From assembly GCA_002841695.1 (NCBI GenBank), contig PHAN01000012.1, positions 1 through 64,000 on the forward strand: a stretch of DNA of 64,000 bases, read 5' to 3'. Source of the DNA: Elusimicrobia bacterium HGW-Elusimicrobia-1. GTDB lineage: Bacteria; Elusimicrobiota; Endomicrobiia; PHAN01. Both the position numbers and the translations under genes were made by a program. This document shows, in pieces, positions 10,400 to 17,242 of this stretch (position 1 is its first letter; every line of letters starts with the position of its first letter). The notes below the pieces were generated by a model. It was not told the origin of the DNA, ran no database searches, and saw only the letters and a program-made list of their open reading frames with translations.

Positions 10400-11536
10400 T
10401 TATTGACGCAGTAATGCTTCCACCAGAGCTCTTGCGAAGTCCGGCGCGGCTTCGGGGCCGGCGGCGGTTATTACAGAGCCGTCTATCTCGACACGGTTAC
10501 CCGTGTAAGTTCCGCGTTTGATCTCCTTTTTTACCGACGGAAACGCAGTCACTTTTTTGCCGTCGACCGCGCCGGATTTGTCGAGCGTGACGGTGGCAAT
10601 GCAGATGGCGCCCAATATTTTGGCGCTTGACGCGAAGTGGCGCGCCAGAGCGTGCGCCGCCGGATTTTCCCAGAAAACCTCCGCGCCGGAACCGCCCACA
10701 AAAACGGCTCCCGCGTATTCCGACGGATTAATGTCCTGTATGAGGGCATCGGACTCCGTTCTCCCGCCGAGCATACCGGACAGCGTGCCCGTTTTCAGAG
10801 AAACCGTCACGACTTCCATCCCCGCCGCCTCGATTGCTTTCTTCGGCTCGAAATATTCCTCGTCGCGGAAGTTTATCGGAGCCGTAATCATAAGGACTTT
10901 TTTGGACATCCCCGCCGCCTTGGCCGCCGGCGTCGAAGGCGCTCCCGCTTTTGAACGGACTATTTTAACCGACTTCAGTATAATGTCGGTGGCGGGCGCG
11001 TCTCTTGGTCCCCGCGGCGCGCGGGCAATTTTATTTACAATGTCCTGCCCCTCCGCGACCTGTCCGAAAATCGTATGTTTTCCGTCGAGCCACGGAGTCG
11101 GCGTCTCCGTTATGAAGAATTGCGAGCCGTTGGTGGCCGGTCCGGAATTCGCCATAGCCAGCCGTCCCGGCCGGTCGAATTTAAGATCGGATATTTCGTC
11201 CTTGAAGCGGTAGCCCGGCCCGCCCGTTCCGGTGCCCAGGGGGCATCCGCCCTGAATCATAAACTCCGGAATAACTCTGTGAAATTTAAGGCCGTCATAG
11301 AAACGCCTTTTCGCCGACTGCCCCGTTTTTTGGTCGATGAATTCTTTCGTTCCCTCGGCAAGACCCGTGAAATTCTCGACCGTCAGGGGGGCTTTGTCCT
11401 CAAATAACTCCACGGTTATCTTTCCCATGGATGTCTCGAATATCGCTTTCATTTTTACGCCCTCTTTTGCGCCGGCTCCGGCGGTAAGCGCGAAAAATAC
11501 CGCGGCCGCCGCCGCGCAGTTAATAAGTTTTTTCAT
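10400..11536 (-). CDS. exported cyclophilin fused to a DJ-1/PfpI domain
   Basis: A 378-residue two-domain protein. Residues 1-24 look like a signal peptide (MKKLINCAAAAAVFFALTAG then AGAKEG). Residues 30-195 are a cyclophilin-type peptidyl-prolyl isomerase: FHRVIPEFMIQGG with the catalytic arginine R87, then NGSQFFIT and WLDGKHTIFG. A short Ala/Pro linker (196-210) leads to residues 211-378, a DJ-1/PfpI fold with GAVFVGGSGA and the nucleophile-elbow cysteine C312 in GAICIATVTL. DJ-1 proteins are usually cytoplasmic chaperones or deglycases, so export as a fusion is unusual. An internal ATG (residue 210, MSKKVLMITAP) could give a separate DJ-1 product, but no good ribosome site precedes it. 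It is divergent from the nuclease-GGDEF gene. Confidence 0.88.
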   Translation of the reverse strand: MKKLINCAAAAAVFFALTAGAGAKEGVKMKAIFETSMGKITVELFEDKAPLTVENFTGLAEGTKEFIDQKTGQSAKRRFYDGLKFHRVIPEFMIQGGCPLGTGTGGPGYRFKDEISDLKFDRPGRLAMANSGPATNGSQFFITETPTPWLDGKHTIFGQVAEGQDIVNKIARAPRGPRDAPATDIILKSVKIVRSKAGAPSTPAAKAAGMSKKVLMITAPINFRDEEYFEPKKAIEAAGMEVVTVSLKTGTLSGMLGGRTESDALIQDINPSEYAGAVFVGGSGAEVFWENPAAHALARHFASSAKILGAICIATVTLDKSGAVDGKKVTAFPSVKKEIKRGTYTGNRVEIDGSVITAAGPEAAPDFARALVEALLRQ

Positions 11537-11644: not shown

Positions 11645-13462
11645 ATGGGCAAAATGTACGTAAGCTACAATATGCTATCCATATACGGGGACTGCCCCCG
11701 GAAATACAAGTTCCAGTATGTGGATGGTCTCGCCAAGCTTTATCGTCAGGAAAAACCTTATTTGTCGTTCGGAGAATCCCTTCACAAGGCATTGGAAGAG
11801 TTCTTCAAAAATCCGAATGCGGAGTCCAGAACCAAGGAAAATCTGCTCGGCATTCTGAGTCGGGTGTGGATAAAAAAAGGATTTTCCAGCGAGGACGAAG
11901 AAAAACAGTATCTTCGCGACGCCGAGCGGTATCTGGGCATATTCTTCGACACTCAGGACGTAAAAATAACGCCGTTTCGCGTCGAAGAATTCTTTCGCGT
12001 TCCTATGGAAGGTTTTTTTCTTACCGGAAGAATGGACCGCATAGACATTCTGCCGGGCACAAAAAACAAGCTTGAGATAATAGATTACAAAACCGGCAAG
12101 TATATGCCGACGCAGGAGACCTTTGATAAGGACCTCCAGATGTCGCTGTACGCGCTTGGGGCATTAAAGAAATATCCGGAGTACTCGCCGGAGAAAATTT
12201 CCGTTTATTATTTTCAGCACGGACAGAAACTCACCACGACTCGCACTCCCGAACAGCTTGCCGAAGTCGAGAGCGATCTTGAGGAGCGCGTCGCGGCTAT
12301 CGCTTCGGATACTGATTATGAACCCAGAGAAACTCCGTTTTGCAGGAGCTGCGATTATCTTCTCATCTGTCCGTTGATGGGCGTATGTGCCACGGAAACC
12401 GCGGGAAAAACGCGTCTCGACGAACAGGCCGGGCAGCAGGCGCTTCTGGAAGAAGAACTTAAAAAAACCAAAGAACACTACGTTTCCATAACTCAGGACC
12501 TCTACGCGCTTCATAACTACTCGCTGGACATATCTTCCACGCTCGATTCTAAAATTTTGGCGCAGAAGATTTCCGCCGCGTTCAGGGGCATTGCGGCGGC
12601 GGCGCGCTCGGCGCTTTTTTTCTGGGACGTGGGCGAGGGAAAATTCATCCTGACCGATTCGCATAATCTGGATTTTTCAGAGGACTTCGCCGTAGAAGAA
12701 AATAAAATATTTTCATTTTCGGGCGGCTGCGATTTCGGTCTGAGCGCGTCCGACACTTTCTCGCGGGATAATCCGTTTTGCTCATTGTTCGGATCCACAC
12801 ACGGACTCAAAAACTACGTAGTCACTCCGCTTGTGACAAAAGACAAAGTTTTCGGGTTGATGGCGCTGGCCGATCTGGCCGGCTCGCGGCGACCGACCAA
12901 TAAACATCTTCAGACGGTACTGACGTCCCTGGCCGACCAGGCGGCCGTAGCCATATACAATTCGTCGCTTTACAGATACGCCATTTACGACGGGCTGACC
13001 AAACTATTTCGCGGCAGTCATTTTCAGGAGCGGCTCAAAATAGAAATGGCCCGCGCCCGCCGCACCGGCGAAAAACTTACTCTGGTGATGTGTGACCTCG
13101 ATAATTTCAAAAAAATAAACGACACCTACGGACACATCGAAGGCGACAGAATACTCAGGGAATTCGGCAGGACGGTCAGAGTCAAGACCCGCGCCACGGA
13201 CATTTGCGGCCGATACGGCGGCGAAGAATTCGCCGTGCTGCTGCCGTCCACGGACGTGTCGGGCGCGGTCAATGTAGCCGAAAATATCAGGGCGCACGCG
13301 GAATCTTCCATAAAAACGTCCGACGGTAAACCGGTGACGGCGAGTTTCGGCGTAGCCGCCTGGGACGTTTCAATGAACAATCCGTCCGACTTTGTGCATA
13401 AGTCAGACGAAGCGCTTTACAAGGCCAAACAGAGCGGCAAAAACCGGGTGGTGTTCGTCTGA
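11645..13462 (+). CDS. PD-(D/E)XK nuclease - GAF - GGDEF (diguanylate cyclase) fusion
   Basis: A 605-residue fusion. Residues 1-250 form a RecB/AddB/Cas4-type PD-(D/E)XK nuclease. H47 (GESLHKALEEF), D131 (GRMDRID), D147 and K149 (IIDYKTGK) and Q165 fit the catalytic set. C17 with C233, C236 and C242 or C248 fits the four-cysteine Fe-S staple of AddB- and Cas4-like nucleases. A coiled linker (255-290) precedes a GAF-like domain (about 295-440). Residues 445-605 are GGDEF, with the active-site variant GGEEF at 525-529 and an RxxD inhibitory site (R516-D519) five residues before it, so it appears competent to make c-di-GMP and to be feedback-inhibited. No TM segment is visible. The stop overlaps the next start (TGATG). 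A stand-alone nuclease coupled to c-di-GMP synthesis is not an architecture I recognise. The domains are clear; the function is unknown. Confidence 0.9.
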   Translation: MGKMYVSYNMLSIYGDCPRKYKFQYVDGLAKLYRQEKPYLSFGESLHKALEEFFKNPNAESRTKENLLGILSRVWIKKGFSSEDEEKQYLRDAERYLGIFFDTQDVKITPFRVEEFFRVPMEGFFLTGRMDRIDILPGTKNKLEIIDYKTGKYMPTQETFDKDLQMSLYALGALKKYPEYSPEKISVYYFQHGQKLTTTRTPEQLAEVESDLEERVAAIASDTDYEPRETPFCRSCDYLLICPLMGVCATETAGKTRLDEQAGQQALLEEELKKTKEHYVSITQDLYALHNYSLDISSTLDSKILAQKISAAFRGIAAAARSALFFWDVGEGKFILTDSHNLDFSEDFAVEENKIFSFSGGCDFGLSASDTFSRDNPFCSLFGSTHGLKNYVVTPLVTKDKVFGLMALADLAGSRRPTNKHLQTVLTSLADQAAVAIYNSSLYRYAIYDGLTKLFRGSHFQERLKIEMARARRTGEKLTLVMCDLDNFKKINDTYGHIEGDRILREFGRTVRVKTRATDICGRYGGEEFAVLLPSTDVSGAVNVAENIRAHAESSIKTSDGKPVTASFGVAAWDVSMNNPSDFVHKSDEALYKAKQSGKNRVVFV

Positions 13463-14187
13463 TGAAATTTATAAAGACGCTCGCGGCCCTGGCCCTTGCG
13501 CCCGTCGTCGCCGCTGCCGTTTACACTTATGCGCGTTTTCTGTATAACTTTGCCTCGGAGTCGATACTGGTTTACCGGAGTTTCTGGGCGGCTCTTGCGT
13601 TGTATCCGGTTTTTCAGAAATTTGTCGCGCGGCCGGCAAAAGTTTACATATTCGAACACGAGATGACTCACGCGCTTTTTGCCGTCCTTACGGGCAGCCG
13701 CGTCAAAAAGATATCCGTTAAAAAAGACAACGGCAGCGTCATCGTCGATAAAACCAATTCGCTGATCACTCTCGCGCCGTATTTTTTTCCGCTCTACGCG
13801 GCGATGATTTTCGGCATATGGAAACTTTCCGCGATGCTCTGGCCCCGGATAATGCCGTGGGAGCCGGCGGCGCATTTTGCGTTCGGGCTGGCTCTGAGCT
13901 TTCATTTTCTTATGACCGCCGGCGCGATATTGCAGGGGCAGTCGGATATTAAATCCGACGGCGTGTTTTTTTCGCTTGCGGTAATATTTTCTCTGTATAT
14001 ATTCGTATCCGTTTTTCTGCTTAAATTTTTATTCGGGTCGCCCGCCGTTTTCGGCGACCTTGCAGGGTTTTTAAAGGAAATATGGCGGCTTTCCGCCGTT
14101 TTTTACGCATGGCTGTGGCGTGTGTTTTACGAAAATATTATTCCCGCCGCGCGTCGAGTCGTCGGCGATTCCATTCCGAAAGGTTGA
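13462..14187 (+). CDS. integral membrane protein with an HExxH metalloprotease-like motif
   Basis: A 241-residue hydrophobic protein with about five or six membrane segments. Near residue 68, FEHEMTHALFAVLTG contains HEMTH, the zinc-binding HExxH motif, at the edge of a hydrophobic stretch, as in M50-type intramembrane proteases. A later NxxxxLAPYFFPLY segment (TLAPYFFPLYA) resembles the region around the third zinc ligand in M50-like proteins, but no clear NxxPxxxLDG motif is visible. It overlaps the end of the nuclease-GGDEF gene by one base (TGATG), so the two are translationally coupled. The substrate is unknown. A non-protease membrane protein with a chance HExxH is possible. Confidence 0.6.
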   Translation: MKFIKTLAALALAPVVAAAVYTYARFLYNFASESILVYRSFWAALALYPVFQKFVARPAKVYIFEHEMTHALFAVLTGSRVKKISVKKDNGSVIVDKTNSLITLAPYFFPLYAAMIFGIWKLSAMLWPRIMPWEPAAHFAFGLALSFHFLMTAGAILQGQSDIKSDGVFFSLAVIFSLYIFVSVFLLKFLFGSPAVFGDLAGFLKEIWRLSAVFYAWLWRVFYENIIPAARRVVGDSIPKG

Positions 14188-14196
14188 GTGCGCAAT

Positions 14197-14796
14197 ATGC
14201 CGGTTCACGTCATTGAAGAAATAAAAAGAAAACTTTTTCACATGCTCACGCTTATTTACGTCGTGGGTTACTGGTTCCTTCCGCGCGAAATCGCGGTCGG
14301 CGGAATGGGTATAACAATCTTCACCGCCCTTGTCATCGAGATGGTCCGGCTTAATCATGAAAAAATCAACCGGCTTATTTTGCTTCTGGGCATCCATAGA
14401 AAAAGCGAAGAACAGCATCTCAGCGGACTTCTGTGGACTCTTTCGGGAGCATTTTTTACGATGTATTTTTTCGACAGCCCCGACAACCCGCTTACGCGCA
14501 ATATCGTTCTGGCGGCGCTGCTTTATGCCGCGCTCGGCGACACGGCCGCCGCTCTTGTGGGAAGGATTATCGGCAGAACCAGAATAGGCACAAAATCTCT
14601 TGAAGGAAGTTTGGCCTGTCTGTTTACGAATCTGGCGGTAGGATATTTTCTTCTTCCGTGGCCGATATTCCTGTGGGGCGCCGTTTTCTCGGCATTTTTT
14701 GAACTGATAAAATGGCCGCTCAACGACAATTTTTGGATACCGATTCTTTCCGCGGGCGCGCTTACGCAATTGATGATAAGGTATTCCTTCCTGTAA
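14197..14796 (+). CDS. diacylglycerol/dolichol/phytol kinase-like membrane protein
   Basis: Membrane protein of about 200 residues with around six hydrophobic segments. The N-terminal EIKRKLFHMLTLIYVV and the later LGDTAAALVGRIIGRTRIG followed by TKSLEGSLACLFTNL match the DGK1/SEC59/VTE5 group of CTP-dependent lipid or isoprenoid alcohol kinases (usual pattern GDxxAsxvGrrfG...KSlEGs). The natural role in bacteria may be recycling of polyprenol or diacylglycerol to the phosphate form. The start is uncertain: GTG at 14188 directly follows the upstream stop, and ATG at 14197 has only a weak GAG. It belongs to the operon beginning at 11645. Confidence 0.78.
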   Translation: MPVHVIEEIKRKLFHMLTLIYVVGYWFLPREIAVGGMGITIFTALVIEMVRLNHEKINRLILLLGIHRKSEEQHLSGLLWTLSGAFFTMYFFDSPDNPLTRNIVLAALLYAALGDTAAALVGRIIGRTRIGTKSLEGSLACLFTNLAVGYFLLPWPIFLWGAVFSAFFELIKWPLNDNFWIPILSAGALTQLMIRYSFL

Positions 14797-14844: not shown

Positions 14845-15579
14845 ATGCTTAAAGTCGAGTCGCTCACCAAACAGTTTCGCGGCGTCGAAGTCCTTAGCGG
14901 GCTTACGTTTTCCGTCGGAGCGGGCGAAGTGCTCGGTTTTCTGGGGCCCAACGGCGCGGGTAAAACTACGACCGTTCGCATCGTTTCCGGAGCCATCCTG
15001 GCAACTTCGGGCAGGGTGGAAATAAACGGAGTGTCCATTGCCGACGACCCCGTGGCGTGTAAAAAAATCACATCTCTTGTTCCGGAGCAGCCATATTTAT
15101 GGGAGCGGCTGAGTGGCTGCGAATATCTGTCTTTCGTCGGGAAAATATACGGGCTTTCTTCCGAAGTTATCGCCGAGCGCGGCGAAAAACTGCTGGCGGA
15201 CTTCACACTTTCGGAATCGGCCGACACGATGATAGAGACATATTCATACGGAATGAGGCAGAAACTCGCCTGGTGCGCGGCGCTTCTGACCGAGCCGCTG
15301 CTGCTTCTGCTCGACGAGCCGTTTACCGGACTCGACCCTATGAGCGTTCGCGCCGCCCGCGCTCATGTCGAGGCGGCGGCCCGCCGCGGCGCGGCTGTTT
15401 TTATCTCCACGCACATACTTGAGATAGCCGAAAAACTCTGCAATAAAATATGTATTTTGAACCGCGGACAAATTGTGGCGGCCGAATCGAGAGAGAATCT
15501 CAAAAAACTTTTTGACAGAGAGATGTCGCTTGAAGACATTTTTTTTGAGATAGTTAAAGACAAACAGCCCGGATTATAA
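14845..15579 (+). CDS. ABC transporter ATP-binding protein
   Basis: Nucleotide-binding subunit of 244 residues. Walker A GPNGAGKTTT (about 33-42), a Q-loop near VPEQPYL, a variant signature YSYGMRQK in place of LSGGQ (near residue 135), Walker B LLLLLDEPFTGLD, and the switch histidine in ISTHILE. The pattern, including the degenerate S-YG signature, is typical of ABC-2 type exporters (CcmA/NatA-like). It lies 19 bases before a permease gene, its expected partner. The substrate cannot be told; neighbours point to an envelope lipid or polysaccharide. Confidence 0.94.
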   Translation: MLKVESLTKQFRGVEVLSGLTFSVGAGEVLGFLGPNGAGKTTTVRIVSGAILATSGRVEINGVSIADDPVACKKITSLVPEQPYLWERLSGCEYLSFVGKIYGLSSEVIAERGEKLLADFTLSESADTMIETYSYGMRQKLAWCAALLTEPLLLLLDEPFTGLDPMSVRAARAHVEAAARRGAAVFISTHILEIAEKLCNKICILNRGQIVAAESRENLKKLFDREMSLEDIFFEIVKDKQPGL

Positions 15580-15598
15580 GCGTCCGGAACCTTCCGTA

Positions 15599-17242
15599 AT
15601 GATGAATACCGTTTCGACTTTCGTCTGGGCATTTTCGAGGGGAGTAAGGAATCGCTTTCTTTCGTTGACACTTTTCGGAGAGTTTAAGGCGGCTCTTTTT
15701 ATTTTTATCGGAATGGTTTTCGCAGCTTCGCTTTTCTTTTTTTTCTGGCGGCTGATATCCTATCTCGACTCGGTCGCGCTGATAGGTCCCGCGCTATCGG
15801 GCAAGTTCGTTTCGCTGGTATGCCTGTCGGTATGGTGGATGGCTGTTTTTTCGTCGCTGAACGCGGCGTACGGCCATTTTTACTTTGCGTCCGACACTCA
15901 CACTCTGATGTCCTGGCCGCTTCCGTTCGCCGACGTTACCGCCGTGAAACTCTTTCGTGTCTTCAGAGATTCTTCCACCACCGCCCTTGCCGCGATGGTT
16001 CCGCTGGTGGTGGCCTTTGGCGCGGCGCGCTCTGCGCCGTTTTCATTTTACGCGCAAAGTTTCGCGGGACTCGCGCCGTTTTTTTTCTCGGCGACGGCCA
16101 TCGGCGTTGCGGCGGTAATATTGGTGAGCGCCCTTTTTCCTGCCTCCAAGGCGCGAAGGCTGATATGGGTTCTGCTGGCGGCCTCCGGCAGCGCGATTTA
16201 CGTGCTGATAAGAATGCTTGAACCGGAGCGCCTTGTCAGGCCGGACTCTCTTGAGTTTGTCGCCGAATATCTGTCTTTTCTTGAAACGCCCGCCGCATCA
16301 CGTCTGCCGTCGGGGATTTATTATGCGATTATGGCAAAATCTTCGGCGGGCGGGTTTAATATTATCGGCTGGTTGGCGCTGTCGGGCATTTGCGCGGCGC
16401 TTTACGCGGCCGTCTCTAAGCTCTCGGAGTATTTTTACGCCGATTCGCTGGCCAACAAGAATGACACCGGACGTTCCGGCGGCTTTTCGGAAAAAATCAA
16501 CCCGCGGGGACCTTCTGGCGAAATAATGGCTCTGGACGCGAAGGTTTTTTTCAGAGAGCCGCAAAGATGGTCGCAAATAATGCTGGTCGCCGGACTATTC
16601 GCGGTTTACCTGGCCAGCGCGGCCAGAATTCCCGCCGACACTTTTTATCTTAAAACCATAGTGGCTTTTATGAACGTGGGCCTTGTCGGATTTGTGGCCG
16701 CGGCTCTTTCTCTGCGGTTTGTCTTCGCCGCGTTCAGCGAGGAATCGGGATTTTGGTGGGTGCTGGCCACGTCGCCGATGTCCGTGGAGCGGATAGTGCG
16801 CGCCAAGTTTCTCTCCCGCGCCGCGCTGGTTGCCGTATCGTCTTCCGCGCTTTATTCCGGCACCGCGCTGATACTCGCAATACCGGCGGCCGCCTCGATT
16901 GCGGGGATAGGTTTTACCGCCGGAATCGCACTGTGCGTATCGACGGCGGCCATATATTTCGGCATAAGGTTTCCCAAAAAAATATTTTCAAGCACGGCCG
17001 AGATAGAGGGATCCAACGGCGGACTTTTTTATGTTGCCGCTTCTCTTTTTTACGTGGCGTTGAATTTGACGGTGTCGGCCGGGCCGTTCAGGGCGTACTA
17101 CATAACGACATTCTCCGCCGTGCCGTCCGCGCGTTCGGGAAATTTGCTTATGGTTTCCGCCGCCGCGTTGTTTATGGCCAATGCCGTCTTGGCGTATTTT
17201 TTCTACAAGAAATCTATCGAGGCGGCCCGAACTTATGAGTAA
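15599..17242 (+). CDS. ABC-2-like exporter permease
   Basis: Large integral membrane protein of 547 residues with roughly 12 hydrophobic segments arranged as two similar halves around a polar centre (about 275-310). The layout fits the large fused 'putative ABC exporter' permeases that pair with a CcmA-like ATPase. The first Met is followed at once by a second (15602), and either may be used. It follows the ATPase gene closely, and its 3' end overlaps the deacetylase gene by 8 bases, so the three genes are expressed together. No substrate signature is visible. Confidence 0.82.
   Translation: MMNTVSTFVWAFSRGVRNRFLSLTLFGEFKAALFIFIGMVFAASLFFFFWRLISYLDSVALIGPALSGKFVSLVCLSVWWMAVFSSLNAAYGHFYFASDTHTLMSWPLPFADVTAVKLFRVFRDSSTTALAAMVPLVVAFGAARSAPFSFYAQSFAGLAPFFFSATAIGVAAVILVSALFPASKARRLIWVLLAASGSAIYVLIRMLEPERLVRPDSLEFVAEYLSFLETPAASRLPSGIYYAIMAKSSAGGFNIIGWLALSGICAALYAAVSKLSEYFYADSLANKNDTGRSGGFSEKINPRGPSGEIMALDAKVFFREPQRWSQIMLVAGLFAVYLASAARIPADTFYLKTIVAFMNVGLVGFVAAALSLRFVFAAFSEESGFWWVLATSPMSVERIVRAKFLSRAALVAVSSSALYSGTALILAIPAAASIAGIGFTAGIALCVSTAAIYFGIRFPKKIFSSTAEIEGSNGGLFYVAASLFYVALNLTVSAGPFRAYYITTFSAVPSARSGNLLMVSAAALFMANAVLAYFFYKKSIEAARTYE

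Follow-up and report, generated by a model that had tools for sequence, protein, structure and literature searches.

A conserved fusion of a Fe-S PD-(D/E)XK nuclease with a GAF-GGDEF diguanylate cyclase in Elusimicrobiota: a possible link between DNA processing and c-di-GMP synthesis

The locus and the domains of the fusion protein

In this work, we have used computational approaches to analyse a window of 64,000 nucleotides from Elusimicrobia bacterium HGW-Elusimicrobia-1 (contig PHAN01000012.1, positions 1 to 64,000), in which a single gene codes for a nuclease, a GAF and a GGDEF domain. The gene, its domains and the genes that follow it are:

11645..13462, + strand: nuclease-GAF-GGDEF fusion gene, an uninterrupted single ORF of 605 aa (stop included in the coordinates)
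11660..12373, + strand: PD-(D/E)XK Fe-S nuclease domain (PDDEXK_1), residues 6-243, from Pfam and the AF2 model
12425..12535, + strand: predicted long helix or signalling linker, residues 261-297, from AF2 secondary structure
12545..12964, + strand: GAF domain, residues 301-440, from Pfam, AF2 and identity comparison
12980..13447, + strand: GGDEF diguanylate cyclase domain, residues 446-601, with GGEEF at 525-529, D484, N492/D501 and RxxD at 516-519
13462..14187, + strand: M50B-like polytopic membrane protease (HExxH, 241 aa), Pfam M50B above cut-off
14188..14796, + strand: 202-aa integral-membrane protein, which follows the M50 gene in the operon of Endomicrobiia-type loci, with no Pfam match
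14845..17242, + strand: ABC ATPase and ABC_tran_2 permease, part of the conserved neighbourhood

The fusion ORF starts with the ATG at 11645 and stops with the TGA at 13460-13462, and its product is predicted to be soluble and cytoplasmic. The three domains named by the first-pass annotation were all recovered above their Pfam cut-offs: PDDEXK_1 at residues 6-243 (132 bits, cut-off 22; E 4e-38), with Cas_Cas4 and DUF2800 as weaker readings of this part; GAF at 370-437 (31.6 bits, cut-off 22.4); and GGDEF at 446-601 (144.7 bits, cut-off 23.8; E 3e-42). The full-length AF2 model has a mean pLDDT of 87.6, with values below 50 only at residues 250-260 and 356-373; its pTM of 0.52 means that the interdomain geometry is not fixed by the model, which counts against the coupling proposed below. 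Among the matches listed, a fold search with the full-length model returned cyclase structures only, and the nuclease was for this reason modelled separately.

Two other features of the window are recorded here. A cyclophilin-type prolyl isomerase fused to DJ-1/PfpI is encoded at 10400-11536 on the minus strand, divergent from the fusion, and a similar gene adjoins the M50 gene in locus L211. The G+C content drops to 37% in the segment 26001-30000, compared with about 52% for the rest of the window, and this segment was possibly acquired horizontally.

Conservation, distribution and neighbourhood of the fusion

A profile search of 341 Elusimicrobiota genomes found a full-length fusion in 11 of them, with 850-988 bits, while the next protein scored 320 bits. 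These 11 proteins span five families (f1, f5, f7, f12 and f15; three inside the class of the window and two outside it), eight genera and two classes or more. The ten apart from the window protein are 33-83% identical to it, and nine of them only 33-40%; the closest one (83%) comes from genome G080, for which GTDB gives the match 'Endomicrobiia bacterium Yes70-21'. A GTDB scan yielded a twelfth copy (L043, AUK224), which keeps the nuclease motif and GGEEF, with no GAF domain by Pfam and no M50 neighbour found. Among the best 80 of 351 nuclease relatives (84,980 species), the fusion occurs in Elusimicrobiota only. Its spread within the phylum is patchy, most genomes being without it, which counts against the main reading.

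The protein is under purifying selection, with dN/dS values between the window and G080 of 0.086 for the nuclease, 0.077 for the GGDEF and 0.116 for the GAF domain. On average, the nine distant fusions share 39% identity with the window protein in the nuclease, 45% in the GGDEF and 21% in the GAF domain, so the GAF domain is the fastest-changing part. The first-pass annotation had named a frameshift or an assembly join at about residues 255-290 as the finding that would undo its reading; this is excluded by the same frame in 10 other genomes, and the conservation in 11 genomes likewise rules out an assembly chimera. Nothing favours an artefact of translation or assembly, or a chance neutral fusion of two genes, except the odd combination itself; the frame shared by 11 genomes of five families, nine at 33-40% identity, and dN/dS values of about 0.09 have already refuted this explanation, to which we give practically no weight. 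A mobile origin was also considered and rejected: viral matches are just 23-28% identical to the nuclease domain, the 53 phage records that match this domain are all below 60% identity, and, of the 5000 plasmid records retained, none covers 80% of the fusion.

The M50-like gene lies directly downstream in all 11 fusion loci, often overlapping the fusion gene (by 1 nt in the window, where its start and the fusion stop share TGATG), and its HExxH motif is invariant. The window copy has no NCBIfam match, and the orthologues L039 and L041 fall below every Pfam cut-off. By eye only, the 202-aa membrane protein that follows resembles a dolichol-kinase/CDP-type membrane protein. The downstream operon, with its protease and ABC transporter, has no link to DNA, and this too counts against the main reading. 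The constant neighbour, together with the two tandem GAF-GGDEF genes that directly precede the same M50 gene in G102 (L222:3784-7231), at the site taken elsewhere by the fusion, would fit an envelope-stress unit formed by the fusion and the protease, in which the nuclease gives only fold or localisation (nucleoid binding). We consider this improbable, since the M50-like family (A3) belongs to the core of the phylum, being present in 261 of 295 genomes, nearly all of them fusion-less, and since the nuclease motif is conserved. Moreover, of the 21 M50 loci scanned that lack the fusion, 18 have no GGDEF or nuclease relative nearby; G035 has a GGDEF gene in divergent orientation next to its M50 gene, and in the fusion-less locus of G203 a nuclease relative is found a few kb off. 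The role of the protease as an obligate partner is weakened by its presence in genomes without the fusion; it may be a partner, or may simply mark an ancestral gene position.

The nuclease domain and its relatives

The residues H47, D131, D147, K149 and Q165 are found where the first-pass annotation had placed them and, with C17, C233, C236, C242 and P18, are the only invariant columns among 34 relatives, which comprise fusions, standalone nucleases and helicase-nuclease C-termini from bacteria and archaea. The same annotation had listed five cysteines; all are present, and the first four are invariant, but C248 is G or S in distant fusion lineages, so that a five-cysteine Fe-S set is ruled out and the canonical four remain, one N-terminal (C17) and three C-terminal. 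This signature and this cysteine arrangement are those of AddB and Cas4 (PMC3466216). Modelled on its own (pLDDT 93.3, pTM 0.87), the nuclease finds its best solved folds in AdnA of mycobacterial AdnAB (TMq 0.65-0.73) and in ACE1 (0.61-0.68), followed by Dna2 (0.54-0.58) and AddB (about 0.5), so that its nearest structural neighbours are nuclease domains that process DNA ends; a profile search of PDB sequences agrees with this (AdnA, E 3e-18). The match to Card1 is weak (rank 47) and reflects the common nuclease fold only. Catalytic residues, four cysteines and fold all place the domain with the Fe-S PD-(D/E)XK nucleases of the AddB/Cas4 type (pfam12705), and its site is apparently intact. A degenerate enzyme is ruled out by the invariance of every motif residue tested, and the suggestion that a former nuclease serves as a mere DNA sensor finds no support, given the same invariance and the purifying selection. 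The domain is not a CRISPR Cas4 either: the scanned neighbours include no cas genes, and the NCBIfam cas4 score is 27.9 against a cut-off of 65. Likewise, no defence genes adjoin the fusion, and PADLOC gave weak Cas4-type profiles only.

The four invariant Fe-S cysteines would also be expected if the cluster were the sensor (of oxygen, NO or iron status), with DNA cutting secondary and c-di-GMP reporting redox stress. In Cas4, each Cys-to-Ala change rendered the protein insoluble (PMC3466216), so the loss of the cluster would strongly disturb the fold. However, a pure redox sensor needs none of the residues H47, D131, D147, K149 and Q165, which are invariant, and we see little probability in this explanation.

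A nuclease tree of 85 rows brings the fusions together in a single group (100/99). Addition of the standalone nucleases of family f6 places these with the fusions (99/95), while a group of fusions only is then no longer resolved (26/40); the f6 nuclease would therefore be either an unfused sister or a fusion that has lost its cyclase. Three f6 genomes carry, directly after the nuclease gene, a homologue of Endonuclease Q, a repair enzyme for damaged bases:

L216:6606-8654: f6 nuclease and Endonuclease Q pair
L217:5332-7362: f6 nuclease and Endonuclease Q pair
L215:4913-6947: f6 nuclease and Endonuclease Q pair

One of these Endonuclease Q copies matches PfuEndoQ with E 1e-57, and a second matches the same NCBIfam family too. 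That the closest unfused nucleases adjoin Endonuclease Q points to DNA repair, and the pair is predicted to be a two-nuclease repair operon. Of the 11 fusion genomes, 5 encode Endonuclease Q as well, on contigs other than that of the fusion. The genome of the window also encodes AddB, a Cas4-like protein and a standalone paralogue of the nuclease, which adjoins rsmD (identified by eye). In G205, a 709-aa protein (L221:5440-7569) has two tandem PD-(D/E)XK nuclease-like regions.

The cyclase domain and its possible coupling to DNA

GGEEF at 525-529 and the I-site RxxD at 516-519 were located as the first-pass annotation had claimed. The former is invariant in 11 of 11 fusions, as are D484 (metal) and N492/D501 (guanine site); the latter (R516/D519) is kept in all aligned fusions but L040, which is the same protein as L011. 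With GG(D/E)EF, metal Asp, guanine-site N and D, and RxxD, the domain has every mark of a canonical diguanylate cyclase, and apparently it is an intact enzyme and not a degenerate receptor. As judged from their residues, both the nuclease and the cyclase site, whose integrity the first-pass annotation had proposed to check, appear intact. D501 corresponds to D344 of PleD, a position at which Asp goes with c-di-GMP and Ser with cGAMP (Hypr GGDEF). Since D501 is conserved in every fusion, with no Ser, a Hypr cGAMP synthase is ruled out and c-di-GMP is the expected product. All 11 fusion genomes encode PilZ domains (1-6 each) and HD_5/HD-GYP-type domains (4-7 each; HD_5 is a proxy, since not all of its members hydrolyse c-di-GMP), and EAL domains were found in 0 of 11. 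The presence of PilZ and HD_5/HD-GYP-type domains makes a c-di-GMP output plausible.

The next-best matches of the phylum align with the fusion from about residue 255, that is, over linker, GAF and GGDEF, and have no nuclease. Judged from sequence, the N-termini of those examined are a TM helix (L256-L259), TPR-like repeats (L264) or a two-TM sensor that includes a HAMP-like segment (L260, L262 and L263). Since these sister proteins carry TM, HAMP-type or TPR inputs there, the nuclease takes the place of the sensory input, and this is the main argument for a coupling between DNA and c-di-GMP.

We propose that the fusion is a conserved bifunctional enzyme in which DNA engagement by the nuclease gates c-di-GMP synthesis, a proposal that we hold to be evenly balanced. 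The AddB/AdnA/Cas4-type Fe-S nuclease would bind, and probably trim, ssDNA or DNA ends; the signalling helix and the GAF domain would connect it to the canonical, I-site-regulated cyclase; DNA engagement, or loss of the Fe-S cluster, would alter the linker/GAF dimer and thereby switch c-di-GMP synthesis, and the PilZ and HD-GYP network would in this way be told of DNA damage or foreign linear DNA. The computation itself gives the single chain, its conserved architecture and purifying selection, the intact residues of both sites, the position of the nuclease in the input slot and the gene neighbourhood. In this scheme we infer the polarity of the nuclease, the dimerisation, the direction of the coupling and the physiological output, and the signal could enter via the GAF domain instead. 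The more specific version, in which an active end-resecting nuclease sets c-di-GMP synthesis by the DNA that it has bound and serves the Elusimicrobiota as an alarm for genome integrity or foreign DNA, is more tentative, and we place it below even. The DNA/c-di-GMP coupling suggested by the first-pass annotation fits the position in the input slot, the conserved fusion and the presence of receptors and candidate hydrolases; its direction is the part for which we reason by inference.

The control could also run the other way, with DNA degradation gated by c-di-GMP or GTP, bound to the I-site or the active site, or by a ligand of the GAF domain. Card1 and NucC, both PD-(D/E)XK effectors, are activated by cyclic nucleotides in a comparable manner. 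The fully conserved motif indicates that catalysis, beyond mere binding, is selected, and the I-site is retained in nearly all members; both facts would suit such an enzyme. Nevertheless, the nuclease is N-terminal, which is the input position in the sister GAF-GGDEF proteins examined, the GGDEF site is that of an intact cyclase, not of a degenerate receptor, and the neighbourhood, as described above, has no defence genes, so we regard this direction of control as unlikely.

Compared with known systems, the nuclease shares with the C-terminal Fe-S nuclease of AdnA/AddB and the solo Cas4-like proteins (pfam12705) the fold, the H/D/D/K/Q residues and the four-cysteine Fe-S staple (PMC3466216), but it has no helicase and carries GAF-GGDEF instead. 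A phylogenomic survey of Cas4/pfam12705 reports UvrD, COG1205 and Cas1 partners and never mentions GGDEF (PMC5704561). ACE1, of the Argonaute-associated Cas4 family (9iab, 9iac), is a standalone nuclease that resembles the domain in size and fold; it is not fused to a cyclase, and no Argonaute lies beside the fusion or relative genes examined. The cyclase half resembles the GAF-GGDEF and PAS-GGDEF cyclases (PleD, WspR, IsPadC) in its GGEEF, metal, guanine and I-site residues and its helical input linker; their inputs are receiver, phytochrome or membrane sensors, whereas here the input is a DNA-acting enzyme. DisA is described as a nucleotide cyclase fused to a DNA-structure-binding module, in which DNA alters synthesis (PMC6547438, PMC8583203). 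It has another cyclase fold, a c-di-AMP product and a non-catalytic DNA-binding domain, while the nuclease of the fusion is apparently active and a Pfam scan found no DAC domain in it; by analogy, the fusion could in principle be the c-di-GMP counterpart of DisA.

Cas10 of type III CRISPR joins an HD nuclease and a GGDEF-like palm in one polypeptide and makes cyclic oligoadenylates in the CRISPR complex. Nuclease and GGDEF-related cyclase fold thus share one chain in both proteins, but the fusion combines PD-(D/E)XK with a canonical GGDEF, and its conserved neighbourhood has no CRISPR genes. The first-pass annotation did not recognise the nuclease-GAF-GGDEF architecture, and the open-licence literature that we searched bears this out: it holds no description of it, nor the many described proteins of the same domain order that would have spoken against its novelty, although it may be mentioned elsewhere. 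All three domains come from known families, and as far as the literature searched goes it is the combination that is new.

What could such an enzyme mean for these bacteria? DNA damage feeds second messengers via DisA (c-di-AMP) and foreign nucleic acid does so via Cas10 (cyclic oligoadenylates), and c-di-GMP is the messenger that sets motile versus attached life. The literature searched contains no direct connection, within a single protein, between a DNA-cutting enzyme and c-di-GMP. Both enzymes are parts of one chain of 605 residues that is predicted to be soluble, so the link is testable with a single purified protein. If it is true, this would be the first DNA-processing diguanylate cyclase, and a DNA-processing nuclease would join the list of GGDEF input modules. 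The conserved fusion, in a little-studied phylum, suggests a direct link from DNA ends or damage to c-di-GMP.
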